A model generated the notes under the pieces. It worked only from the letters and a program-made list of their open reading frames with translations. It had not been told where the DNA came from and did no database searches. This document shows positions 3,343-43,360 of a DNA stretch of 47,970 nucleotides, in pieces (position 1 is the stretch's first letter; each line of letters starts with the position of its first letter). Where the stretch lies: positions 1 through 47,970 of the forward strand of contig WFTQ01000108.1 in the NCBI GenBank assembly GCA_015485355.1. The letters run 5' to 3'. The position numbers were made by a program, and so were the translations under genes. This DNA comes from a bacterium (lineage in GTDB: Bacteria; Calditrichota; Calditrichia; RBG-13-44-9; J042).

Positions 3343-4206
3343 CTACTTCCATCTGGGATTGGCGTAACAATAAAGACAACCCAAATAACACGGCTGAAGC
3401 TGATAATCTCCGACGTCAATGGAGGAGGTACACCCACAATCTTTGCGGGTGGGCGCTTTTGCTTCCGTCACCTTTCCTCTGGATGACAATTGATTCAGCA
3501 ATTGCCCGTCGATGCAACGGCCTTTTGCCATGCCCGGAAGCTGAAGCAGCCTGTCATTGCAACAACTGTACAACCGGATTCCATATTCCCGGGCGATGGC
3601 CAGCATTTCCTGTAGTATTTTGAACCGCTCAGGATCCTCCAGATTCACCAGCCGGGCCCGAGGGTATTTCTTGCGAAATCGACGGATAAACTTTGTATAA
3701 GGGGTCACAAAGCTGAGATAACAACGGGACACTCCCAATTGAGCCACCTGCCGGCACAGTTCCCGAAATTCCTCCGAACGGTAATTGGTGTGCCCACATC
3801 CATTTTCCACCCAGAATACCAGGGGATCGTATCGCCAGGTAATGCGGCGGCCTCCGTAAAGAAATGCCAGTCGTTCCAACTGTCGTAAAGCAACAGGAAC
3901 CGGGTTTTGGTGTTTCTCCAAGGCGGGGTGATGGCTAACGATGGTGAAATGAAAAAACAGCTGATAGTCCTGAAAGAAGTGGCGATGTTTCAGAAACACG
4001 TTGTAATTCCGGGACCAGAAGACAATCCATTCCACCGTTCGCGGCGAAAGGTCGACCACCTTCACCTGGCGGCGGTAAAAGGGATTGCGGACCTCCACTT
4101 TGCCCCGGCGAATTTGTTCCATGAACCATTTCAAATAAAAGGCCGGAATGTCCGTTCGCCGCGAGGCCGATATCACCGTCTTCCGATTCATTTTCCAGGC
4201 CGCCAT
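3343..4206 (-). CDS. DUF1848 family protein (putative Fe-S protein)
   Basis: Protein of 287 residues that opens with SASRRTDIPAFY, the hallmark of DUF1848 (PF08902). The C-terminus carries a Cys-rich patch: CGCTSS, then PCYLGCLYCYANP. This looks like the cluster-binding loops of radical-SAM/SPL-like proteins and suggests an Fe-S cluster, but no enzymatic activity is established for the family. I place the start at 4206 because AGGA lies five bases upstream; an ATG at 4191 (MNRKTV) and one at 4233 are also in frame. It is divergent from the DUF429 gene across a short AT-rich gap. Function unknown. Confidence 0.82.
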   Translation of the reverse strand: MAAWKMNRKTVISASRRTDIPAFYLKWFMEQIRRGKVEVRNPFYRRQVKVVDLSPRTVEWIVFWSRNYNVFLKHRHFFQDYQLFFHFTIVSHHPALEKHQNPVPVALRQLERLAFLYGGRRITWRYDPLVFWVENGCGHTNYRSEEFRELCRQVAQLGVSRCYLSFVTPYTKFIRRFRKKYPRARLVNLEDPERFKILQEMLAIAREYGIRLYSCCNDRLLQLPGMAKGRCIDGQLLNQLSSRGKVTEAKAPTRKDCGCTSSIDVGDYQLQPCYLGCLYCYANPRWK

Positions 4207-4366
4207 TTTTTCCTGAAACGATCGATGCTGCACCCGGGTTTCTTATGTATATTTCGTTTGTCTTAAATACAAAACCCGGGTCCAGGAAAAGAAAAAGAGA
4301 TGTATGTCTGGAGTAAACCAAACAAGCCGATCTATCCTTACCAGAGGGCAGGCAAAGGTTAAAGCC

Positions 4367-5391: not shown

Positions 5392-8300
5392 TCAAGACTC
5401 CGCGGCACCCCACAAGGTCAAGGGAACAATTTTTTCAAAAAAGGAATCTCCTCCGTGCTGGAAATGGGCCTCCTTTGCAACAAAACCATGGTCAGCGGTG
5501 ACGAGAACAAAGGCATGGGGCGGAATTCTCTTCAGCACAGGAATGAAAAGAGATTTCATCCGCACCTGTAGCACCTGGTAAATGGTTCCCAGGGGTTCCC
5601 GGCGTTCGTGCAGTAATCGGTCCAGGATAGTCACATTCAGCACCAGTAAGGGCAGTTTTTTCTCCAGAGCGGAGAGAACTTCACTTTCCGCCGATGGTTT
5701 TTCGGCCAGTTTCACCAGATGCCATTGCAGCGCCCCAGTGGCATTCAACAATTGTTCCAACAGCACCGGACGGTTGATTTCCGTGGTGGTGGGACTATTC
5801 ACTTCCACCGCGGCGGTGAACAAAATCGGGCGGTTGTGTAATGCGTCCGCCAGCAAGGGTTCCACGATCTTCCAGGCGTCCATGCGAAGGGCGTCGATGA
5901 TAACCGCCACCAGCGGGTGCTCATCGGAATGCAATAAAGCGGTTAATCGGCGGGGCCATTGGGCAAGGTGGAAATATGCCATCGGCAGCGATTTTTTCGA
6001 GAACGCCGGCACAGGGAACGTGAGTTTATGCTCCAACAGCTGAATTTTTTGGGTGACTGACTTCCATTTTTCATCGGGAATCAATTCCAATCGACGATTT
6101 TTCTCTTCCAAGACACTCTTTAACAAGGGCAGTTGCCATCCATCCTGCAGATAAAACACCAGCGGATGTTCGCCCTTTCGGTGGATGAGTTCCAACAACA
6201 TCAGGTAATCGTGGAGCAAGCGAAGGTGCTCCCATTGTTGCCGGCGGGAGTGCCGACTTAAATTTTTTCCCAATGCTTGCAACAAGTCTACCGGGGTTTC
6301 CGTGGGGGCCAGTTGTCGGAGGAGTGCTTTTGTGGCTTTGCGCGAAAGTTCCTCCCACATTGTTTCTTTTTCGATGAAACGCGCCAGCTCCGGTAATGGT
6401 TGCCCGGCGGGTTGTATCAGTTTTTCCAGCTGTTCCAGAGTACCCTTTTCAACCAGCGCCAATGCGACCTGCTCCCAATCTTTCTGCCAACTGGATTCCG
6501 CTGGAGCCGTTTGCAGTTTTTCCTTGGCACCATGGCGAAACCGATACTGTTCCTGCACCCAATTTTCCCAGGCGGGTCGAGCATGCTGAACGGCCCACCG
6601 CAAGAGCCAGAAAGCTTCAAAAAAGCGCCGGCCTTCTTCATGAATGAGGTCAGTAAAATCGTGGTAGTTGGCGGGATCGAGCCGAGGAAATTTTTCGGGA
6701 TGGCGAATGTGCACAAACGTGTTTTCATCCACGGTATGTCCCTCCGTGAGCCACTTATCGAAAATGTCCCGGATTTCCTTCACCGTAAGCTGTCGACCCA
6801 CAAGGGCTTGCTCCAACTGGTGCCAATCGCGTCGTAAAATGAGCACCCGTCCCTGCACCGCCTGCTCGATGTGCTCCAGCACTTCTTGATTCAGCAGGTG
6901 CAGAAGTTCGTTTGTCCGACTGTCCATTTGTTGCACCGGAAAGGCCAGCACCTTTTCCAGCTGATCGGCCAGTAACGGTTTCTTTATCTGACGGAGATTT
7001 TGGACATATTCTTCCAGAATCCAGCGAAAACGCGACTGCAGTTGCTCCAGGAAACTCCGAATTCCCGATGCGGCCATTTGCCGGAGGCTCTGTTGGCGGG
7101 ACTGGGGCGCTTGTTGACCGGGCACGAATCCACATTCGCAAAAGGCGCGATGGGTCAGTTGTTTCTCCACCAGACGCCCACAGGGAACCGGCAAGTCCAA
7201 AAGCTGCTGTTGAACAGCGATCCAATCGGGATCCGGAACGATACTGGGCGAATGATGCAGCCGCTTAAGCAGCTGAATTTCCACCGATTGTTCCAGTTGT
7301 CCCCTTTCCTGAAATACCGATTGCTGATAATATTGCTGGTGCAATTTTTGGTACAGGGCGATGTATTGACGCCGCACCTGGTAAAAGCGGCGAGAAAGTT
7401 GTTCCAGCGCCTCGGGTTCCAGCACCAGCGAGGTGGTGAGTTTCCGCCGGATATCCTGCAGTTCCTGAATCTCCGGATACACCACCCGGGAACCGGATTG
7501 CTTAAATGCCGGCTGGGAAAGATAATGGTAAATCTGATTCAGCTCCCCAAAGCGGCCTTCCAGAACCTGAATGGTATTTTCCAGCTGTGCGACATTTTCC
7601 GGAAGACCGGCAAACGATTGCAAGCCCAGGTTTGACACCAGCTGTTCCAGCCCTTCGGTGGAAGAGAGCGAGGGTTTGAAATGGCGGGAAAATTGCAACA
7701 ATGCCTCCGGGATGGGTGTCAATTTTTCTTTCAACGTTTCGTAAAAGGGGTAATTTTGCATGCGCTCCGTTAACTCGCGCCACCGGTTTAAGAGCTGTTG
7801 CAATGTTTCCCTTAATTGCCGCATTCGGCGCCAGTACATTTCCTGAATGGTGAAGGAAAAGCCGGGGGGAATGTCGGCAAAGTCGTTCAGTCGCCGGAAA
7901 GAATGCAGGGCATTTTGCACCTCTTCGCGCACCAGTTTGCCACGTCCCACTCCGTCGATGCCGCCGTCTTCCAGCTGGGAAAGGGAGTGGAAGACAACGG
8001 AATTGCCGCTTAAAAAAGACGTGAGTCGACCGGTGGCCAGCAAGGCTCCCATGAGCAGCCGAAAAACCTCCGGACTTAAGCCCCATTCTCCTTTTCGGAA
8101 TCGCCAGTACAGCGCGTATAGGCTCACAATTTGATCCCCCTGGCAACGATCCAGGATCGCTTTCAGCAGGGGTTGTTTGTTCGGGTCGATGCGCAGGACG
8201 TACCGCTCGTTTTCCAGCGCCACCATTTTCAAAGGGGTGAGGAATGTTTCGATGAGCACGTCCAGGTGCCTTTCCCGGGCTTCAGCGCGGTGCAGGCTGC

Positions 8301-10656
8301 CTGGACGAATCAATTGGTCGAATAATTTATCGGCTACGAAAGGGGCCATGGTGTCGGTTGGCATAACTTCGCTGTGCCGGGGGAATATCTCCTGCAAAAT
8401 GGGTGAGAAAATCTGGTTTAACATGGTTTTAAAATCGGGGTAGAAGGGGGCAAGCCGCAGCGGCAACCAGCCCTGGCAATTGGCCAGCCGTCCTTCCAGG
8501 TAGAGCGATTCTACAATAGCAACCACTTCCGCCTGAAGGGACTGCAACCGTTCTTCCACAATCTGTTGTTTTTGACGGTCGGACAAATTGGAGCCGGATT
8601 TCCATGTAGAGGCCAGCTGCCAGTAAGCAAAGTATCGCCGCAGCACGTCCCATTCATCGTCCATCGGTCGGCGAGGAAACCAGAACACCAGCGCTCCGGC
8701 AAATCGACTCTCCGGAGCCCCGGGGAAAATTGCGCTGAGAGGGGTCTCATCCGTTTCGGGGGAAGGCATCAGCACAAGAGCAAAATCTCGTTCTGTTCGG
8801 TTCAGCTCTTCCACCAGCTCTTCCAGCTCAAGGCCGTCGATTGTACCGTTGGGTTTCCACATTACCCAGCCTTCCCGCCGGGTATTTTGCCACAGGAACT
8901 GAAACTTTTTACGGCTGCCGGAAGCGATCCGGTTGAAGGGAATCTGGGGAGAAGATAGGGTCGGGAGCAGCGTTTTAAGCCAGTCGGAAAAATCCAGAGG
9001 TTGTTTCAGCAAATCCCGCACGTTTTGTTTTATCAGCTGCGGCAGGCTCACTTCCAGGCTGATACCGTAAACCGGTTCCTTCCCGCCGGTGTCGAAACGC
9101 GTGACGTAGGTGGATTCCTGGGTGAGTTGTTTGAGGATGACTTCCTCCATGTAACTGTAGTTAATAGAACTTTCCAGCGGGGATATCGGTTGGGCAATCA
9201 TTTCGGTGAGCCGCCCGGCGGTGGGTCGCTGGAATGTAGGGGAAATTTCGATGAGAATAAGGATTTTTAGCACTTTGGTGGCCAGCTGTCGGTCGGTCTC
9301 TTCCGGGAAAAGCGTCGCAATTTCTTTTTGCACCGTCGGATAAACCACGTCCACGTAGTCCACAAATTCCGGCAAACTGGAAAGCCGTTCCTGGAAATGG
9401 TCGAAAATAGTATCGGGCGTCAACAGCGTTGTGGCTGGAAGTTGCAGCATTCCCGGCCAGTTGCGGTTGGAATCCCCCGCCAGCTGGTGGTATATGAAGT
9501 CCACCACTCCCCGATGCTGCGAGAAAATCGGCGTCAATGTCTCCAACAGGTCGATGGTTGCGGGATGAACGGGATAGATTGCTTCAAAGGTTTGAGCCTC
9601 GATGGCGCCAGGCGCAAAAGCTTCCTGGAATCGACGATAGATTTGAGGCAGAAGCTGTGCGGCTTCCGGCTTTTTTTGAATCAATCGCTGGGAGATGAGC
9701 TCCCGGACGTGGTGGGCGGAGAGGTAAATGCGCACGGGGAAGCGGTCTTTAATGCGGAGGAGTAAGTCCTGCTCAATGTAGCCGGTTTTTTCAATGTTTT
9801 CCTGCAAGGCGGCCAGTAAAAAAACGGCAGGTCTTTCTGCGGAAGGGGGTTGCTGGGCTATTTCCCCTAAGAATTGCAGAAAACGTAAATCCTCGTTAAA
9901 AGCCGCCGGGTTTTGTTTGGATTTCAGAAATTCGGACAGCTCGTCCAGTAAAAAGAAAATGCCCTGAGCCTGGGCCTGTTGCATGGCATTCAACAGGATC
10001 TGGAGAGCCTGCCGCCGGTCGAACACCGGCTTTAGGGGAATGTTGTGGGATTGAATAAAAGCATAAGCCGATTGCATGGCCTGACGAGGCTGGGTTTCAC
10101 GCAAATGCCGCCATTCCCGTGGGGTAAGTCGGTGGGATTTCAGAAAATCCGGGTGTTGCGGGAGCACATATTTTTCGAAATGTTCCAGCAGCAGGGAACC
10201 GCTTCGCAGCCAGATTTCTTCGCCAACAACTTCTGTTAACGCCTTTTCGGCCGCACCGAACACAATGGATTCCAAGTATTCGGCAGCCGAAAAGTGGTGC
10301 AAGGCAATTTTCACCGGCACAATGCGGGGCCGGTTTTCCTGCAACGGTCGAAACACTGGATGGGGCAAAATCTTCGACAATTCCGGATCGGACAGGAGTA
10401 AATACAGCACCGCCAGAAAATGCGATTTGCCCGATCCATAATTGCCTTTGACAAAACCACCCAATCCTTGTTGATGGCGGATATGGTGGAAAACAACCTG
10501 AAAGGCCTGTTCGATCTCGCGGGTGATGACAAACTGGCGAAGTAAATTGTGGGTACGTTCCCGATCCCGGACTTGAACCTGCTCCAGTTGTATAACCGTT
10601 TCTACCAGGGGAATGGTAATCAGGTCGCCTATCCGATAGGATTTTAAATCACCCAT
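5392..10656 (-). CDS. PglY/BrxC-like P-loop ATPase fused to PglZ-like domain
   Basis: Single 1754-residue frame. The N-terminus is a large P-loop ATPase like the DUF6079/PglY/BrxC proteins of BREX and Pgl phage-defence systems: Walker A GNYGSGKS at residues 71-78 and Walker B IFFLLDE at about 233-239. The middle is long, helix-rich and Gln/Leu/Arg-rich. The last 175 residues look like a PglZ domain (alkaline-phosphatase superfamily): IDALRMD near 1587-1593, an NSPTTTEINRP segment, and VTADHGF near 1719-1725 with candidate metal ligands Asp and His. PglY and PglZ are normally separate proteins. No methyltransferase (PglX), Lon, BrxA or BrxB gene is in the window. The GGGG-AAAAAC stretch before the ATG is a weak ribosome site. 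It follows the TPR gene by 85 bases on the same strand. Defence is an inference; a housekeeping role is possible. Confidence 0.85.
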   Translation of the reverse strand: MGDLKSYRIGDLITIPLVETVIQLEQVQVRDRERTHNLLRQFVITREIEQAFQVVFHHIRHQQGLGGFVKGNYGSGKSHFLAVLYLLLSDPELSKILPHPVFRPLQENRPRIVPVKIALHHFSAAEYLESIVFGAAEKALTEVVGEEIWLRSGSLLLEHFEKYVLPQHPDFLKSHRLTPREWRHLRETQPRQAMQSAYAFIQSHNIPLKPVFDRRQALQILLNAMQQAQAQGIFFLLDELSEFLKSKQNPAAFNEDLRFLQFLGEIAQQPPSAERPAVFLLAALQENIEKTGYIEQDLLLRIKDRFPVRIYLSAHHVRELISQRLIQKKPEAAQLLPQIYRRFQEAFAPGAIEAQTFEAIYPVHPATIDLLETLTPIFSQHRGVVDFIYHQLAGDSNRNWPGMLQLPATTLLTPDTIFDHFQERLSSLPEFVDYVDVVYPTVQKEIATLFPEETDRQLATKVLKILILIEISPTFQRPTAGRLTEMIAQPISPLESSINYSYMEEVILKQLTQESTYVTRFDTGGKEPVYGISLEVSLPQLIKQNVRDLLKQPLDFSDWLKTLLPTLSSPQIPFNRIASGSRKKFQFLWQNTRREGWVMWKPNGTIDGLELEELVEELNRTERDFALVLMPSPETDETPLSAIFPGAPESRFAGALVFWFPRRPMDDEWDVLRRYFAYWQLASTWKSGSNLSDRQKQQIVEERLQSLQAEVVAIVESLYLEGRLANCQGWLPLRLAPFYPDFKTMLNQIFSPILQEIFPRHSEVMPTDTMAPFVADKLFDQLIRPGSLHRAEARERHLDVLIETFLTPLKMVALENERYVLRIDPNKQPLLKAILDRCQGDQIVSLYALYWRFRKGEWGLSPEVFRLLMGALLATGRLTSFLSGNSVVFHSLSQLEDGGIDGVGRGKLVREEVQNALHSFRRLNDFADIPPGFSFTIQEMYWRRMRQLRETLQQLLNRWRELTERMQNYPFYETLKEKLTPIPEALLQFSRHFKPSLSSTEGLEQLVSNLGLQSFAGLPENVAQLENTIQVLEGRFGELNQIYHYLSQPAFKQSGSRVVYPEIQELQDIRRKLTTSLVLEPEALEQLSRRFYQVRRQYIALYQKLHQQYYQQSVFQERGQLEQSVEIQLLKRLHHSPSIVPDPDWIAVQQQLLDLPVPCGRLVEKQLTHRAFCECGFVPGQQAPQSRQQSLRQMAASGIRSFLEQLQSRFRWILEEYVQNLRQIKKPLLADQLEKVLAFPVQQMDSRTNELLHLLNQEVLEHIEQAVQGRVLILRRDWHQLEQALVGRQLTVKEIRDIFDKWLTEGHTVDENTFVHIRHPEKFPRLDPANYHDFTDLIHEEGRRFFEAFWLLRWAVQHARPAWENWVQEQYRFRHGAKEKLQTAPAESSWQKDWEQVALALVEKGTLEQLEKLIQPAGQPLPELARFIEKETMWEELSRKATKALLRQLAPTETPVDLLQALGKNLSRHSRRQQWEHLRLLHDYLMLLELIHRKGEHPLVFYLQDGWQLPLLKSVLEEKNRRLELIPDEKWKSVTQKIQLLEHKLTFPVPAFSKKSLPMAYFHLAQWPRRLTALLHSDEHPLVAVIIDALRMDAWKIVEPLLADALHNRPILFTAAVEVNSPTTTEINRPVLLEQLLNATGALQWHLVKLAEKPSAESEVLSALEKKLPLLVLNVTILDRLLHERREPLGTIYQVLQVRMKSLFIPVLKRIPPHAFVLVTADHGFVAKEAHFQHGGDSFFEKIVPLTLWGAAES

Positions 10657-10741
10657 TTGTTTTTCCCCAACACCAATAAGGAATGATCTTTCACGTCAAT
10701 TCCTCATTCTGATTGAAATCGACCACGACACCGTTGAGCGG

Positions 10742-11725
10742 TTAAATTTCCCATTTTTCCACTTTCCGTCGGATTCCATAATATTGTTTTTTATCGGGGT
10801 AGCGCACCAGGATTTTTTGAATCAGTTCCAATGCACCCTGCTTATCGCCTTTTCCCCGAAAGGCTTTCAAAAGCGCATTCCGCACATACACATCGTCGGG
10901 GTCTTCCAGCAAACAATCCTGGAGCAGGTGAACGGCGGTGTCCCAATCTTTCTTTTTCAGATGCGTGAACCCCATCTGCTTCCGCTGGTAGAGATTGCCG
11001 GGAGCCAATTGCAGAATCCGTTGTTGCAGGGGTTCGGCTTTCTCCAGTTGACCGGCTTTACGGTATTCCCGAGCCAGCAGTCCCAATAAATGAACGTTAT
11101 GGGCCCGCGATGGGATTTTTAACAAATTTTCCAGATGCCGGATTCTCTCTTGGAGGGACAATCCTTCAATTTTCAAATCAATGAAACGATTGTAAATGAA
11201 ATCATCATCGGGTCTGGCTGCCACCAGTTTCTGGTATATGGCAAGGGCTTTTTCCTTCTGACCCAGGCGATGGTAAAACTCAGCAGCAATCTGGAGGAAA
11301 TCCATTCTGCGGCGGTAAAGGGATTCCAGCTCCGAAAACAGATTGTCCAGCAGGGGTAATTTCCGGTTCTGCTCGGCCAGTTTGAAGAGGTTTCGAAGAA
11401 TGTGCCGATGGAATTTTCGGGTGAGTACTTCTGTCGCCAGTGGAAGTGCTTTTTCCAGCTCTTTTTGTGCCAGCAAAATTTGTACATAGATCGAACGGAG
11501 GAATTCATCGTGCGGCGCCAGGGCCAGAGCGGTTTCGGCGTACTGCCTGGCTTCGTTCAGACGTTTCATCAGAAAGGCCAGATGAGCAAAATTCCCCCAG
11601 AAATAGGAAGATTTTGGATTGGAGGCCGCCAGTTCCTGAAACGCATGCCAAGCATTTTCATAATCTTTTTCTTTTTTCAGCTGAATTGCGTGGGCAAGGC
11701 GTTTTGAAAATGCGATCTGTGTCAT
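10742..11725 (-). CDS. TPR-repeat protein upstream of the ATPase-PglZ gene
   Basis: A 327-residue tetratricopeptide solenoid with no signal peptide, so probably cytoplasmic. TPR-like helix pairs run through it, e.g. KDYENAWHAFQELAASNP, EKALAIYQKLVAARPDD, QLEKAEPLQQRILQLAPGN and KDWDTAVHLLQDCLLEDP. TPR proteins mediate protein-protein contacts. Being 85 bases upstream of the ATPase-PglZ gene and cotranscribed-looking, it may be its partner (inference). I chose the ATG at 11725 (MTQIAF). A TTG at 11815 also lies in frame but would place a Shine-Dalgarno-like GGAGGTGAT inside the coding sequence, and the extra 30 residues look non-coding. Neither start has a well-placed ribosome site, so the N-terminus is uncertain. 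Confidence 0.78.
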   Translation of the reverse strand: MTQIAFSKRLAHAIQLKKEKDYENAWHAFQELAASNPKSSYFWGNFAHLAFLMKRLNEARQYAETALALAPHDEFLRSIYVQILLAQKELEKALPLATEVLTRKFHRHILRNLFKLAEQNRKLPLLDNLFSELESLYRRRMDFLQIAAEFYHRLGQKEKALAIYQKLVAARPDDDFIYNRFIDLKIEGLSLQERIRHLENLLKIPSRAHNVHLLGLLAREYRKAGQLEKAEPLQQRILQLAPGNLYQRKQMGFTHLKKKDWDTAVHLLQDCLLEDPDDVYVRNALLKAFRGKGDKQGALELIQKILVRYPDKKQYYGIRRKVEKWEI

Positions 11726-12247
11726 GTTGGAAGAATGGTTATGGGTGGATACCCATGGCAAATCTTTTACGTGAAGGCCCGGTCTTTCCTTATTTTTGTT
11801 GCCGATCACCTCCAAACATGGAACAATTTAGGCAAGGATTGCAAAGAAAACAAGGCGGGTTTACGGAGAACATGGGTGAATTCATAATAACCAGTATCCG
11901 CCGGCAATTTTCCAGGAGAAAGAACATGAAAAATGTATTTTACGGCATGAAAAATAATCCCTTCTTACATCTTGATTTTCAACGGAATAATTGTTCTTCT
12001 TTTTAATCCGCATTTATTGTCTCAATCCAATACTTCCATGGCTATCGGCACCACAAATCGTGCATGAGTTCTTTAACACATATGGCGGTGATGGATTTGC
12101 TGAAGCCGAACGGCGGGGTTGGGAGGCTCTGGGAAGTACGGTGGTCCGGGGAGTTTTTCAGCATCTGTTGTCTGCGCCCGTCCACCGCCGCCCAAGCATG
12201 GCCGTTATTTCGGCAGCAACGCCCGCAGCCGGTGAAGGCACATTTTC
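11726..12247. other. Intergenic stretch, 522 bases, no recognisable gene
   Basis: Lies between two minus-strand genes. It holds a plausible promoter for the TPR/ATPase-PglZ pair (11825-11853) and an orphan Shine-Dalgarno-like GGAGGTGAT (minus strand, about 11804-11812). Short ORFs exist on both strands at 11991-12345, but none resembles a family I know, none has a good ribosome site, and they run in opposite directions over the same bases. I see no RNA gene or repeat. Confidence 0.6.
11825..11853 (-). promoter_or_regulatory. Candidate sigma70 promoter for the TPR/ATPase-PglZ unit
   Basis: Minus strand TTGTTT, a 17-base spacer, then TAAATT. The same -10 hexamer occurs in the candidate promoters of lepA and of the acyl-CoA dehydrogenase in this window. 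The transcript would carry a leader of about 90 bases before the ATG at 11725. Confidence 0.42.
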
Positions 12248-12904
12248 CTAATCCTGCGCATGCCGTGCGTAAACCATCACCTGCCACATACCTCGTGTCC
12301 GATGATACCGACGATGCAGGCCTTCCCGCTGCAGAATATTGTTGACTATCTGGGTGGAATGCACATAGGTTCGAAACGGTCGCCGGAGCAACCCCATGGC
12401 CAGGTTCAAACCCCACACTCCCAATTTCACCCACCAGCGTTCCCGGGGAAACACCAAACCATACAGCCGTTTTGCCCGAGCGGCGGATAATCCGACCAGC
12501 CGTTGGACATCGGGATAACAACAAATGACCCGATCCAGAGTGACAATATCGACTTGGGGCACCTGCGGTGCCAGCTCCACGAAATCGCCCATCAGATACG
12601 TCGCCCGTTCGACGTATCCCAATCGCTCCGCTTCCGCGCGGGCCACGGCCTGGTATGCCGGAGAGGCATCCACATTGTATATCCGCCGAATCCCCTTCCG
12701 TACGAACTCGTGTTGAATGGCGCCTATGCCACCGCCGATATCCAGCAAACTCTCTCCCCGCCCATCGGCCGCCTGCAGAGCCTCTAAAAGCATGCCCGTG
12801 GTTTTGGCAGGACCCTTCTTCAAATACCGTTTCAGATCCCGGCGGGCGGTCTTTTCATTAAAAATTTCCTGAATACCCACACACTGCGCTTGACAACAAG
12901 CCAT
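12248..12904 (-). CDS. Class I SAM-dependent methyltransferase
   Basis: 218 residues. Motif I is LLDIGGGIGAIQHE, followed by the acidic strand end YNVDAS (binding the SAM ribose) and VDIVTLDRVICCYPD (motif IV region). The start is fixed by GGGAGG seven bases before the ATG at 12904. The frame extends further upstream without family character. The N-terminus has a Cys cluster (MACCQAQC) followed by IFNEKTARRDLKRYLKKGP, a pattern I associate with a conserved group of small-molecule methyltransferases sometimes annotated near magnesium-protoporphyrin O-methyltransferase. There is no bacteriochlorophyll context here. The substrate is unknown. A good sigma70-type promoter lies just upstream. Confidence 0.83.
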   Translation of the reverse strand: MACCQAQCVGIQEIFNEKTARRDLKRYLKKGPAKTTGMLLEALQAADGRGESLLDIGGGIGAIQHEFVRKGIRRIYNVDASPAYQAVARAEAERLGYVERATYLMGDFVELAPQVPQVDIVTLDRVICCYPDVQRLVGLSAARAKRLYGLVFPRERWWVKLGVWGLNLAMGLLRRPFRTYVHSTQIVNNILQREGLHRRYHRTRGMWQVMVYARHAQD

Positions 12905-12959
12905 TGGGCCGCCTCCCAAGCGATTGATTGACAGCCTCCCTTTACCCCATAATTGCCCC

Positions 12960-12988
12960 AATATAGGCAGAGCGCCGGCGATTTCCAA
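12960..12988 (-). promoter_or_regulatory. Candidate sigma70 promoter for the methyltransferase
   Basis: Minus strand TTGGAA, 17 bases, TATATT, about 55 bases before the ATG. The match and spacing are good; activity is inferred. Confidence 0.48.
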
Positions 12989-13112
12989 AAAGTTCCCCGG
13001 GAATCCGGGTCGGTGGAAAATCCCGTCCTCCTGCGAGTTTCCGGAAAACCGCCCCACGAACACCGCGGGAGTATCATTTCCAGATTCCAGGCCACAGACG
13101 ATGATTATGGCT

Positions 13113-15361: not shown

Positions 15362-16750
15362 ATGCCAGGAATATTTCAGAGTTTGGATATTGCGCGGCGG
15401 GCGATCTGGGCCAATCGGTTGGGCCTGGATGTGGCCAGCCATAACATTGCCAATGTCAATACGCCCGGTTACAGTCGGCAACGGGCCGTATTGCAATCGG
15501 CTCGTCCCCTCACCCTGATCAAGGGGCAATTGGGCCTGGGCGTCAAGGCCGATCAAATCGAACGCATTCGGAGTCAGTTGCTGGATTTGCAATATCGTCG
15601 GGCCGGCCACACCTTCGGGAAAGCCGAAATCCAGGAAAACACCCTGCTCCAGGTAGAAACCGTCATTCAAGAACCCGCGGAAAACAGCATAGGCAATTTA
15701 ATCACCGAATTCTTCTCCGAATTCAGCAAATTGGCCGGCGAGCCCGAAAACACCGCCATCCGCAACACGCTGGTGCAAAAAGCCACCGGGCTGGTGGAGG
15801 CGTTTCGTTCAAAATACGAAAGTCTTTCGGAAATTCGGAACTCCCTGCGCCAGGAAGCTGGCTCCATGATCAACCAGATCAACGAGATGCTGCGGCAGAT
15901 GGCCGAGCTCAATGCTCAGATCGCCGGTGTGGAAGGCGGCGGCGGCAGCGCCAACGACCTGCGCGACCAGCGCGATCGACTACTGGATCAATTATCGGAA
16001 TATCTGGACGTGCGCTACGTGGAAAACGACCGGGGGCTAATGACCGTTTCGGTGGAAGGCATGATGTTGGTGGGAGGGGACACCTTCAATCCCCTTTCTC
16101 TGGAAACCTACCAGGCCGATGGGGTTCTCAAGATTCGCCTGAAAACAGATGAAGGGCGGATCCTATCGGTCCAGAACGGGCGGCTGGGCGGCCTGATTAC
16201 CCTTCATAACACGACTATCCAGAAGGTCCTGGACGACTTGAACACCCTGGCCGGTAATCTGATCCAGGAGGTAAATCGGATTCATCGCAAAGGGAACGGA
16301 TTGCCGGTGGGCAATCCACCCCAACCGGCCACGGGGTTGGACTTTTTCACCGGGACCGATGCCCAATCCATCGATATTCAACCGGACGTGGCCGACAACG
16401 TGGCGAACATAGCCGCCTCCCTGGACGGCTCCGTGGGTAATGGTGAGGTGGCCCTGGCCATCGCTAATCTGAGGAACAAAAAGCTCTTCAACGGGCGCAC
16501 CGAAACCCTGAACGATTTTTACAGCAACATGATTACCAACCTGGGCACCGAGATTCAGGTGGCTCAGGATACCCGGTTTAATCAGCAATTGCTTCGGGAT
16601 CAGATTCAAAATCAGCGGGACTCGGTATCGGCGGTTTCGCTGGACGAAGAGATGACCAATCTCATCAAATACCAGCGGGCCCTCGAAGCGGCGGCAAAAA
16701 TCGTTCGGGTTGTGGACGAAGTGCTGGAAACCGTCATTCAAATGGGATAA
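15362..16750 (+). CDS. flgK: Flagellar hook-associated protein 1
   Basis: 462 residues, shorter than the enterobacterial protein. FlgK (HAP1) forms the first ring of the hook-filament junction. The N-terminal signature is present: FQSLDIARRAIWANRLGLDV, then ASHNIANVNTPGYSRQRA, the conserved rod/hook/HAP motif. The C-terminus has the matching helix (AVSLDEEMTNLIKYQRALEA, AAKIVRVVDEVLETVI). The N- and C-terminal helices pack together as the D0 domain outside the cell. The reduced length reflects a smaller variable middle. It is secreted by the flagellar type III apparatus with the FlgN chaperone encoded upstream; flgL follows after 22 bases. Confidence 0.96.
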   Translation: MPGIFQSLDIARRAIWANRLGLDVASHNIANVNTPGYSRQRAVLQSARPLTLIKGQLGLGVKADQIERIRSQLLDLQYRRAGHTFGKAEIQENTLLQVETVIQEPAENSIGNLITEFFSEFSKLAGEPENTAIRNTLVQKATGLVEAFRSKYESLSEIRNSLRQEAGSMINQINEMLRQMAELNAQIAGVEGGGGSANDLRDQRDRLLDQLSEYLDVRYVENDRGLMTVSVEGMMLVGGDTFNPLSLETYQADGVLKIRLKTDEGRILSVQNGRLGGLITLHNTTIQKVLDDLNTLAGNLIQEVNRIHRKGNGLPVGNPPQPATGLDFFTGTDAQSIDIQPDVADNVANIAASLDGSVGNGEVALAIANLRNKKLFNGRTETLNDFYSNMITNLGTEIQVAQDTRFNQQLLRDQIQNQRDSVSAVSLDEEMTNLIKYQRALEAAAKIVRVVDEVLETVIQMG

Positions 16751-20512: not shown

Positions 20513-21352
20513 ATGGCGTTCTACGCTGGATCCCGCATCAACACGAACGTTGGGGCACTTAATGCCTTCAACGCTCTCAACAACATTAATTCCCGCATCG
20601 GTACCGTTCAGATGCGTCTGGCATCGGGCAAACGGATCAACTCCGCCGCCGATGATCCCGCCGGCTACACCCTGAGCAAAAAGCTGGAAGCGCGTTCCCG
20701 CAGTCTCTCCCAGGCTTTAAACAATGTCGGAGAATTGAAGAATGTGCTCTCCGTGGCCGAAGGCGGTCTGCAAAACATCAACGACATCTACGTCGGCATC
20801 AAGGAGAAAGTCATCCAGGCCGGGAATGGTTCCTACGGAGACGAAGAGCTCAATGCCATTCTGACCCAGATCAACGATATGCTGAAAGAAGTGGACGATA
20901 TTATCAGCCAGACGAAGTTCAATTCTTCCAAGCTGCTGGACAATAACTTCACCAGCAAGATCTTCCAGATCGGTGCCGATGGCGGCGACACGCTGACCGT
21001 CAGCTTGACCAAATCGATCGACTCCTCCGACTTCGGATTGAACAGCCTGAGCACCACCGACCTGAGCGGAAGCAGTGTGTCCACCACATTGAGCAGTATC
21101 GATTCCGCCATCAAGACGGTCACTCAGGAATTGCAGAACATCGGATCTTTGATCAGCCGACTGGACGTCAAGGAATCGACGCTGTTGACGGCGATCACCA
21201 ACACCGAGGCCGCCAAGAGCCGAATCATGGATGCCGACATCGCCAAGGAGCAACTGGAACTGACCAAACTCCAGATATTGCAGCAAACGTCTACGGTACA
21301 ACTGGCCCAGGCAAACGCGGCGCCCCAGTTCGTGTTGAGTCTGTTCCGGTAA
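20513..21352 (+). CDS. Flagellin (first copy)
   Basis: 279 residues. Filament subunit with intact D0/D1: NTNVGALNAFNALNNINSRI, then LASGKRINSAADDPAGYTL at the N-terminus, and ITNTEAAKSRIMDADIAKEQ, then LELTKLQILQQT and AQANAAPQFVLSLFR at the C-terminus. The central part (about residues 170-200) is short and Ser/Thr-rich (SLSTTDLSGSSVSTTLSSID), with no large D2/D3, so the filament should be smooth. These Ser/Thr are potential O-glycosylation sites. No Cys is present. Transcription from a sigma28 promoter and CsrA control through the leader are both suggested. An intrinsic terminator at 21371-21407 separates it from the second copy. Confidence 0.97.
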   Translation: MAFYAGSRINTNVGALNAFNALNNINSRIGTVQMRLASGKRINSAADDPAGYTLSKKLEARSRSLSQALNNVGELKNVLSVAEGGLQNINDIYVGIKEKVIQAGNGSYGDEELNAILTQINDMLKEVDDIISQTKFNSSKLLDNNFTSKIFQIGADGGDTLTVSLTKSIDSSDFGLNSLSTTDLSGSSVSTTLSSIDSAIKTVTQELQNIGSLISRLDVKESTLLTAITNTEAAKSRIMDADIAKEQLELTKLQILQQTSTVQLAQANAAPQFVLSLFR

Positions 21353-21370
21353 TTCAAATTTCGAGCCACC

Positions 21371-21407
21371 CATCGGGGGCCGTCACTCGTTGATGGTCCC
21401 CGATTTT
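21371..21407 (+). terminator. Intrinsic terminator after flagellin 1
   Basis: Arms ATCGGGGGCC and GGTCCCCGAT (9 Watson-Crick pairs plus one G-U) around a 14-base loop, followed by TTT. It separates the two flagellin genes and implies the second has its own promoter or relies on readthrough. Confidence 0.68.
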
Positions 21408-21505
21408 AAACATCGCTCAACCGTTTCGCCGGGTATGGACGCAGGGGATACCCAACGAAAGGGTTGAGGACGATCGAACGAGGATCAAGAGTGACAATAC
21501 CAAGC

Positions 21506-21555
21506 AGCATCTGGGCAAGGATGCTCAGTAAATCCGTAACAAAATACAAGGAGGT
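21506..21555 (+). promoter_or_regulatory. Two candidate CsrA-binding sites in the flagellin 2 leader
   Basis: A hairpin AGCATC/GATGCT with loop TGGGCAAG (21506-21525) places an AAGGA at the loop-stem junction. Site 2 is ATACAAGGAGGT (21544-21555), the Shine-Dalgarno, matching the CsrA consensus at 11 of 12 positions. It has the same two-site layout as the first flagellin although the leaders are otherwise dissimilar. Confidence 0.6.
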
Positions 21556-21561
21556 ATTATC

Positions 21562-22401
21562 ATGGCTTTTTACACAGGTTCACGGATCAACACCAACGTG
21601 GGGGCCCTCAATGCGTTTAACGCCCTCAGCAATATCAACAGCAAAATCGGGGTCCACCAGTTACGGCTTTCCACGGGAAAACGCATCAATTCCGCGGCGG
21701 ATGACCCGGCGGGGTACACCCTGGCCACCAAACTCAAAGCCCGTTCCCGGGCCCTGGGACAGGCCCTGAACAACGCCGGTGAAGCCAAAAACATCCTCTC
21801 GGTGGCGGAAGGCGGCCTGCAGAACATCAACGACATCCTGGTGACGATCAAGGAAAAAGCCATTCAGGCCGGAAACGGCTCCTACGGCGACGAAGAACTG
21901 GATGCCATCGTTACCCAGATTCAAGATCTGCTCAAAGAAATCGATGACATCATCAGCCAGACCAAATTCAACAACTCTCAGTTGCTGAACAACAATTTTA
22001 CCGGCAAGGTCTTCCAGATCGGTGCCGATGGAGGGGATACCCTGACCATCAGCCTGACGAAATCGATCGATTCGGCGGATTTCGGGCTGAACAACATCGC
22101 GTCCACCGATCTGCAGGGATCGAGTCTCAGCGTCACCTTGACCAGTATCGATACGGCGATCAAAACCGTGACGGAAGAATTGCAAAACATTGGTTCACTG
22201 ATTCAGCGTCTGGATTATAAAGAGGCCACACTACTGGTTGCCATTACCAATACCGAAGCCGCAGCCAGTCGTATTATGGACGCCGACATGGCCAAAGAGC
22301 AGATGGAAATGACCAAGCTTCAGATTCTCCAGCAAACGGCCACAGTACAATTGGCCCAGGCGAATGCCGCTCCACAGGGAATTTTACAGTTATTCCGGTA
22401 A
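21562..22401 (+). CDS. Flagellin (second copy)
   Basis: 279 residues, the same length as the first copy and differing at scattered positions throughout, so a diverged tandem duplicate rather than a recent one. D0/D1 signatures are intact (LSTGKRINSAADDPAGYTLA, then ITNTEAAASRIMDADMAKEQ, AQANAAPQGILQLFR). The middle is short and Ser/Thr-rich (IASTDLQGSSLSVTLTSID). No clear sigma28 promoter is seen in the 209-base gap; TAAA at 21406 with a GCCG further downstream has the wrong spacing. A promoter of another type or readthrough must serve it. The leader has two CsrA-type sites. FliS and FliD follow. Confidence 0.96.
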   Translation: MAFYTGSRINTNVGALNAFNALSNINSKIGVHQLRLSTGKRINSAADDPAGYTLATKLKARSRALGQALNNAGEAKNILSVAEGGLQNINDILVTIKEKAIQAGNGSYGDEELDAIVTQIQDLLKEIDDIISQTKFNNSQLLNNNFTGKVFQIGADGGDTLTISLTKSIDSADFGLNNIASTDLQGSSLSVTLTSIDTAIKTVTEELQNIGSLIQRLDYKEATLLVAITNTEAAASRIMDADMAKEQMEMTKLQILQQTATVQLAQANAAPQGILQLFR

Positions 22402-42304: not shown

Positions 42305-43336
42305 TCAGGAGCGATCGATTCTGAACGAAACAGGGGCTTGCCGGATGGAAAATTCCCGGGCGGATGGTTCCGTTTGATCCCGATATTTCTTGAGGACCCG
42401 GATAAACACCTCCACCAGATGGGGATCGAACTGCGATCCGGCATTTTTTCGAATCTCCTGCAGGGCCGACTCGTGTTCCACCGCCTTCCGATACACCCGA
42501 TCGGAAACCAACGCTTCGTAAGCATCGATAATCGCCAGCAGCCGAGAAAAGAAAGGAATGGCCTCCCCCTTTAATCCATCGGGATAACCGGTGCCATCAT
42601 AGCGCTCGTGATGATGGCGCACTATCGAGGCCACTTCGGACAGCTCCTCGATTTCCCCGATAATCTGGCTTCCGATAATGGGATGGTCCTTGGCCCTTCG
42701 CAATTCATAATCTTCCAAACTGCTGGCCTTATGGAGGATGTGATCCGGCATGCCGATCTTACCAATGTCGTGAAGGTAGGCGGCCAGCATCAGGGTAAAT
42801 TTTTTATCGGGATCCAGCTGCAGTTCTTCGGCCATCCGCATGGCCAGCCGAACCACCCGCTGAGAATGCCCCGAGGTGTAGGGATCTTTTGCATCCAGTG
42901 CCCGCATCAATGCCTTTAACGCCTTGAACAGAATCTCCGCCTTGTTTTCCTGAATGCGCCGCGCTTCCAGCCGTTTGCGCTCCAGATTCCGCTCAATCAC
43001 CACCGGAATTTCATCGATTTTGATGGGTTTTACGATATAATCGCTCACGCCCAATTTCAATGCGTGTTTAACCAGAGAAAGATCGTGTACCCCGGTCACC
43101 AGCACCACCGGAATGTCCAGATACATGGCCATCACCTTTTTCGCCAACTCGATGCCACTAACCCCCGGCATGTTGACATCACTGATCACGATGTCCACTT
43201 TGTTTTGCCGGATGATATCCAGGCCACCGGTAGCGGAAAAGGAAAGATGGACCCGATATCCGAAATGTTCCAGCGCCTCCCGGAGCATTTGCCCATACTG
43301 AATATCATCTTCAATGACCAACACCGAAATCGCCAT
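42305..43336 (-). CDS. Response regulator with HD-GYP phosphodiesterase domain
   Basis: 343 residues. REC domain (1-120): acidic pair Glu9/Asp10-Asp11, phosphoacceptor in ISDVNMPG (Asp53), LVTG and VKPI. HD-GYP domain (about 140-320): RVVRLAMRMAEEL, HDIGKIGMPDHILHK (the HD), HPIIGSQII, HHHERYDGTGYPDG (the full GYP motif with DGxGYP) and LLAIIDAYEAL. Such proteins hydrolyse cyclic di-GMP, lowering it and typically favouring motility. The ATG at 43336 has AGGTGG five bases upstream. It lies 24 bases downstream of the acyl-CoA dehydrogenase on the same strand, with no kinase gene adjacent. Probably linked to flagellar control, but no direct evidence is in the sequence. Confidence 0.93.
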   Translation of the reverse strand: MAISVLVIEDDIQYGQMLREALEHFGYRVHLSFSATGGLDIIRQNKVDIVISDVNMPGVSGIELAKKVMAMYLDIPVVLVTGVHDLSLVKHALKLGVSDYIVKPIKIDEIPVVIERNLERKRLEARRIQENKAEILFKALKALMRALDAKDPYTSGHSQRVVRLAMRMAEELQLDPDKKFTLMLAAYLHDIGKIGMPDHILHKASSLEDYELRRAKDHPIIGSQIIGEIEELSEVASIVRHHHERYDGTGYPDGLKGEAIPFFSRLLAIIDAYEALVSDRVYRKAVEHESALQEIRKNAGSQFDPHLVEVFIRVLKKYRDQTEPSAREFSIRQAPVSFRIDRS

Positions 43337-43360
43337 TCCAACCACCTGCCGCGTTTCCTT

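Follow-up and report, generated by a model that had tools for sequence, protein, structure and literature searches.

We describe here a conserved family of proteins in which a BrxC-type ATPase and a PglZ domain form a single chain, and which has a TPR-repeat protein as its partner. The family is represented in the window, by which we mean the whole stretch of DNA analysed, 47,970 nucleotides that make up one complete contig (WFTQ01000108.1) of a Calditrichota genome of 3.44 Mb; a preliminary description of the same DNA had missed the partner. Our best reading, which we put at an even chance, is that the two genes constitute a BREX-related module, composed of a TPR adaptor or sensor and a single-chain protein that unites a BrxC ATPase with a cap-less PglZ phosphodiesterase or nuclease.

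The ATPase part and its relationship to BrxC

The preliminary description had proposed one intact frame of 1754 residues with four recognisable motifs, and both points were borne out: the frame has no internal stops, it lies on the minus strand (the strand had not been given), and the motifs fall at residues 71-78 (GNYGSGKS), 233-239 (IFFLLDE), 1587-1593 (IDALRMD) and 1719-1725 (VTADHGF). The features of the gene and of its partner are collected in Table 1.

Table 1. Features of the fusion gene and its upstream partner, in window positions
Feature	Position	Strand	Residues or length	Remark
TPR-repeat protein gene	10742..11725	minus	327 aa	length counted from a start also found in a homologue; TPR families (Pfam)
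Spacer, TPR stop to fusion start	10657..10741	minus	85 bp	
BrxC/DUF6079-PglZ fusion gene	5392..10656	minus	1754 aa	ATG at 10656, stop ends at 5392
AAA+ ATPase part	9232..10656	minus	~1-475	border approximate
Walker A	10446-10423	minus	71-78	invariant in ten-row alignment
Walker B	9960-9940	minus	233-239	invariant in ten-row alignment
Trans arginine	9744-9742	minus	R305	aligns with BrxC R330
Rest of DUF6079/BrxC part	6727..9231	minus	~476-1310	predicted winged-helix and alpha/beta region, coiled coil
C-x13-C-x-C motif	7182-7132	minus	1159-1175	distal part of DUF6079/BrxC region
All-helical linker (predicted)	5932..6726	minus	~1311-1575	from model of residues 1301-1754
PglZ domain, putatively cap-less	5395..5931	minus	~1576-1754	resembles PorX and BREX PglZ in profile and fold searches

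An ATPase of the BrxC/PglY kind had also been proposed, and matches to both DUF6079 and BrxC were obtained. The Pfam family DUF6079 (PF19557) matched residues 741-1305 with an E-value of 1.3e-51 and 175.7 bits, above its gathering score of 23, and the PADLOC BrxC model matched at 8e-39, while the 103.8 bits scored against the NCBIfam model NF033441 (BREX_BrxC) are below the cut-off of 400. When a profile of the ten-row alignment, covering residues 1-1192, was run against the PDB, BrxC was the only natural protein matched (1.3e-14 to 2.6e-14), with two designed helical proteins ranking after it. An AlphaFold model of the ATPase part (mean pLDDT 79.5, pTM 0.47) similarly returned BrxC structures first in Foldseek (9zll, 1.8e-11) and ORC next, and up to residue 1192 the predicted secondary structure is compatible with winged-helix, alpha/beta and coiled-coil regions, at an overall pTM of 0.47; the structure models used in this work were built on 5 and 10 sequences.

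By our residue count in an alignment to 9zn5, R305 corresponds to R330 of BrxC, the arginine that is given in trans to the ATP pocket of the neighbouring molecule (PMC13326643). The AAA+ core, the Walker motifs, the trans arginine and the length of the ATPase part as a whole are common to the fusion and BREX BrxC/PglY, and the distal cysteine motif is shared at least with one Halorarius BREX BrxC. They differ in that the fusion carries a C-terminal PglZ domain, stays below the NCBIfam cut-off for BrxC, and has no adjacent BREX genes.

The absence of PglX, BrxA, BrxB and BrxL from the window, claimed in the preliminary description, held among the frames scanned with Pfam and PADLOC, and the refuting finding of BREX genes just outside the window, a whole contig, was not made; no phosphorothioation module was recognised in the window either. 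In a genome-wide search the fusion profile matched the fusion alone, the one further PglZ is of the PorX type, and no PglX-type methyltransferase is present, the only Eco57I-type enzyme scoring as DISARM DrmMI. That enzyme, on contig C20, was rejected as part of a hidden BREX system on account of this score and of its place beside a DrmD/DpdE-type helicase; the two form a DISARM-like pair (L052:2538-9715), in which the 1420-aa DrmMI-type methyltransferase reaches the contig end. A 271-aa methyltransferase in the window (12248-13063) was likewise rejected as a stand-in for PglX, its Pfam families being those of general small-molecule enzymes, with no NPPY-like motif seen.

The BREX hallmark of a BrxC-type ATPase together with PglZ is present here as one fused chain. 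According to a recent survey, BrxA- and BrxB-like proteins occur in all BREX types (PMC12839542), and the fusion locus is built from BREX parts without being a member of BREX. It resembles the BREX-Related Capture (BRC) systems in using DUF6079 and PglZ outside BREX; in BRC, however, these are separate proteins that come with HerA/FtsK, a STAND NTPase, DUF4007 and others (PMC12839542), and no BRC-type components were recognised at the fusion locus, with no HerA/FtsK among the neighbours scanned with Pfam and PADLOC. There are precedents for the joining of core parts in the type-4 BREX PglZ with its fused BrxB-like domain (PMC12839542) and in an engineered BrxC-BrxB fusion (PMC13326643), but neither has the BrxC-PglZ joint. 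We found no mention of a BrxC-PglZ fusion or of TPR in the main text of the survey (PMC12839542), and no description of the fusion and TPR pair in the literature searched.

The PglZ domain

The C-terminus had been described as PglZ-like. The Pfam score alone is under the cut-off, with 20.8 bits for the window domain against a gathering score of 25 for PF08665 (best E-value for the five fusions, 2.4e-5), but the family profile and the predicted fold confirm the assignment. A profile of the five PglZ domains, run against 177,635 PDB sequences, placed PglZ-domain proteins in all of the top six positions (PorX 5.6e-4, BREX PglZ 0.02), and with an AlphaFold model of residues 1301-1754 (mean pLDDT 80) 18 PorX/PglZ chains ranked first (E 3.8e-9). 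Comparison of the fusion domains with a two-row PglZ/PorX alignment, profile to profile, gave a weak result (25% probability, E 7.6e-4), probably because both alignments are thin.

All seven residues expected at the metal site are present (D1588, T1625, D1679, H1683, D1722, H1723 and H1734), and none of them varies among five fusions whose identity to the window protein in the PglZ region is otherwise 20-42%. T1625 and H1734 align with T272 and H500 of PorX, which equal T538 and H741 of PglZ; in PglZ the T538A substitution abolishes activity, and H741A alters and lowers it (PMC12205998). Sequence and model together indicate that the domain has an alkaline-phosphatase-type fold with a complete metal site.

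The spacing between the DHG and HGG motifs is 14-16 residues in all six fusions, whereas it is 75 in the BREX PglZ of a Halorarius and 87 in the PorX of the window's genome. Given that a three-stranded cap-like insert is described in the main text of the survey as common to BREX, BR and PorX PglZ (PMC12839542), we infer that the stretch missing from the fusions is the cap, and that their PglZ is a reduced form. The model of residues 1301-1754 contains no alpha/beta domain like that at the N-terminus of BREX PglZ. The fusion shares with BREX PglZ and with the PglZ domain of PorX (PF08665) the fold and the metal-site residues, but would differ from both in lacking the cap insert, from BREX PglZ in having a helical linker in place of the reported N-terminal alpha/beta domain, and from PorX in lacking an N-terminal receiver domain, no receiver family being matched anywhere in the protein.

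The PorX homologue of the same genome is itself split (contig C50, L012:7577-8044 and 8113-9141), with the receiver domain in one frame and the PglZ part (NF052313, 455 bits over the latter) in another, the mark of a frameshift or an assembly error.

The TPR partner and the distribution of the family

The preliminary description had called the gene stand-alone. This is right insofar as it lies apart from any BREX locus, but it is not a lone gene, for a TPR gene precedes it on the same strand, across a spacer of 85 bp. The longest frame of the TPR gene begins at 11815, and a G-rich stretch upstream of the fusion ATG is a possible ribosome-binding site.

Two genomes yielded full-length homologues of the fusion: G015, which belongs to the window's order (contig WYBG01000251.1, 44% identity), and one from the Fidelibacterota (SCKK01000002.1, 42% identity). 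Further relatives in G125 and G187 are truncated by contig ends. More distant fusions, whose end motifs are the same, were found in G391 and G156, with a partial gene in G014. The latter genome, likewise a member of the window's order, holds its remote, contig-truncated DUF6079-PglZ fusion at L014:6384-9821, and a BREX-like BrxC is encoded separately on a different contig (L015:4176-7907).

The upstream TPR gene recurs with these fusions. It precedes the Fidelibacterota fusion (46% identity to the window TPR protein, E 4e-104) and stands directly before that of G187 (30%, 3e-20), while in G391 a weakly similar TPR gene is divergently placed. Across 26 genomes, each with 16 to 72 TPR candidates, homologues (E<=1e-12) were found in five of the five with close fusion relatives and in none of the 21 others. 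With the query genome left out, four of four against none of 21 is by our calculation one way in 12,650, in a sample whose genomes we chose, which are not independent, and among whose 21 the remote fusions of G156 and G391 are counted. The TPR gene was not seen beside the fusion in G015 or G125; in both it is on a different contig, with other genes after it in G015, so that, assembly errors aside, the tie between TPR gene and fusion is not merely one of physical linkage. The divergence of the two proteins is parallel: G015 and the Fidelibacterota genome share 57% identity in the TPR protein and 54% in the fusion, and the window protein shares with either of them 46-47% and 42-44%, respectively.

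The family is patchy. Only 3 of 40 genomes of the phylum gave any match to the fusion profile, and a genome of the same genus (G001) gave none. Searches of the phyla around G040, G125 and G187, at one to three genomes per phylum, returned no further relatives; a single-sequence scan of genome contigs found no relative, and a two-row alignment search found two. No fusion relative was found in phage records or IMG/VR contigs, and among plasmids the sole relative was the Halorarius BREX BrxC that served as our control, with no close plasmid relative. In the tree the G015 copy groups with the Fidelibacterota copy and not with that of the window (95/96), which suggests a transfer across phyla. The deep order of the fusion groups and BREX BrxC could not be separated because of long branches, and the homologue set is small, with most relatives coming from fragmented genomes of uncultivated lineages.

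In G040 (contig C82) a short C-terminal PglZ remnant (L013:12242-12619), most like the Fidelibacterota fusion and followed by an integrase-like frame, is a decayed copy. At the Fidelibacterota locus (L017:9282-9865 and 15471-16210) an AbrB-like and a PIN-like frame separate the TPR gene from the fusion, and just downstream come an MqsA-like zinc-finger frame and a fragment of an integrase; those of these frames that were scanned had no PADLOC match. A related DUF6079 clade with the ATPase and without PglZ was found in two families of one group (L031:8650-12684, L034:7085-11110, L040:7272-11291 and L041:5085-8159). Its neighbourhood is conserved, with cyclophilin, MoaD-like and hotdog-type genes, and pyr genes in two loci, these functions being our reading of the sequences save where Pfam was run; in each of the three loci that are complete, a small membrane protein is encoded immediately upstream.

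The neighbours in the window are ordinary genes (flagellar, LepA, dehydrogenase) and do not form a defence island. A DUF1848 protein (3343-4233, minus strand) matches the PADLOC model of reverse-transcriptase-associated DUF1848 at 7.4e-47, with no reverse transcriptase recognised beside it. A 346-aa protein (42305-43345, minus strand) with weak PADLOC matches to the PD-T4-6 and Cas3 HD models (1.1e-10 and 1.6e-7) is probably an HD-domain protein whose N-terminus forms a domain of its own. Two tandem flagellin genes of 279 aa each (20513-22401, plus strand) follow a glycosyltransferase-TPR gene; the flagellar cluster to which they belong also has FlgN, FlgK, a third flagellin-like protein, FliW and FliD.

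Proposed function and alternatives

TPR proteins have many roles, and the one encoded here is a natural candidate for sensing or for restraint. In BREX, BrxB bridges BrxC and PglZ (PMC13326643), ATP controls the self-association of BrxC and its binding to DNA, and PglZ cuts DNA (PMC13326643, PMC12205998). Since BrxC and PglZ are covalently joined in the fusion, a BrxB bridge would be unnecessary. In the mechanism we propose, ATP and DNA would cause the BrxC part to dimerise or to form a ring on DNA, as reported for BrxC, and the covalent link would bring the PglZ domain straight to that DNA, in place of the bridge made by BrxB. The TPR protein would either keep the enzyme inactive or, as we guess, bind a trigger such as an invader protein or a DNA-protein complex, and on activation the metal site would nick or cut nearby nucleic acid. 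Given that there is no dedicated methyltransferase, the host would be spared because activation is conditional, not because its DNA is marked.

A restriction or defence role for the module we rate at about one half. In its favour are the matches in only 3 of 40 genomes of the phylum, the genome of the same genus without a fusion, the apparent transfer (95/96 in the tree), and the toxin-antitoxin-like frames and integrase fragment beside the Fidelibacterota copy. Against it are the ordinary neighbours in the window, the failure to find a relative in phages, viral contigs or, at close range, plasmids, the conserved housekeeping setting of the ATPase-only relatives, and the TPR gene that does not stand beside the fusion in G015 and G125. 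The fuller proposal, that this is a TPR-controlled single-chain BrxC-PglZ system of two genes, found in several phyla, which restricts or processes DNA without a methylation mark and is the smallest BREX-related system known, we hold tentatively, at somewhat less than an even chance.

The preliminary description had wavered between a minimal defence gene and a different cellular machine. A machine of the latter sort, engaged in DNA maintenance or chromosome processing, would combine an ORC-like AAA+ loader with a phosphodiesterase and a TPR assembly adaptor, and the resemblance of the ATPase part to ORC structures (after BrxC), the housekeeping genes that adjoin the fusion in the window and in G015 and surround the Fidelibacterota locus, and the chromosomal neighbourhood and small membrane protein that the ATPase-only relatives keep in two families would all suit it. 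We nevertheless think it unlikely, because a core function should be distributed more evenly than a gene that is absent from the genome of the same genus and from most of the phylum, and whose tree disagrees with taxonomy; the patchy spread and the apparent cross-phylum transfer favour the minimal defence gene.

It is less probable still that the fusion is a signalling enzyme, in which a PorX-like PglZ domain would hydrolyse cyclic or linear oligonucleotides, the ATPase would gate it and the TPR protein would pass on the signal. The absence of a receiver domain, the lack of any nucleotide cyclase seen beside the fusion and the DNA-binding, BrxC type of the ATPase all weigh against this, even though PorX is the best match by both profile and fold and a cap-less domain may favour small or flexible substrates. 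The PglZ domain of PorX is reported to cleave both cyclic and linear oligonucleotides, but BREX PglZ cuts both oligonucleotides and DNA (PMC12205998).

That the fusion is a stray component of BREX, or of a BREX-related system, acting in trans with genes elsewhere in the genome, we consider very improbable. Parts of some systems can be scattered, and the assembly is in 114 contigs, but the genome is 98.7% complete and has no second match to the fusion profile, no PglX-type enzyme, a PglZ otherwise only of the PorX type and an Eco57I enzyme that scores as DISARM, and the family recurs with TPR genes, not with BREX genes. A decaying remnant or assembly artefact without function can hardly be entertained, for although the distribution is sparse and the G040 fragment beside its integrase-like frame demonstrates that decay does happen, full-length frames are open in three genomes at 42-54% identity, with the active-site residues of both ATPase and PglZ kept and the partner conserved.

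BREX systems comprise up to eight genes, and their mechanism is unsettled, partly since BrxC, BrxB and PglZ form shifting complexes. If the two-gene module is what we propose, it would be a naturally occurring single-chain form that lacks BrxB, PglX and BrxL, in which the ATPase-nuclease core is isolated for study on its own. It would also test whether methylation is dispensable, the TPR protein would be a new kind of partner, and the cap-less PglZ would offer a natural variant from which to learn the part that the cap plays in the choice of substrate.
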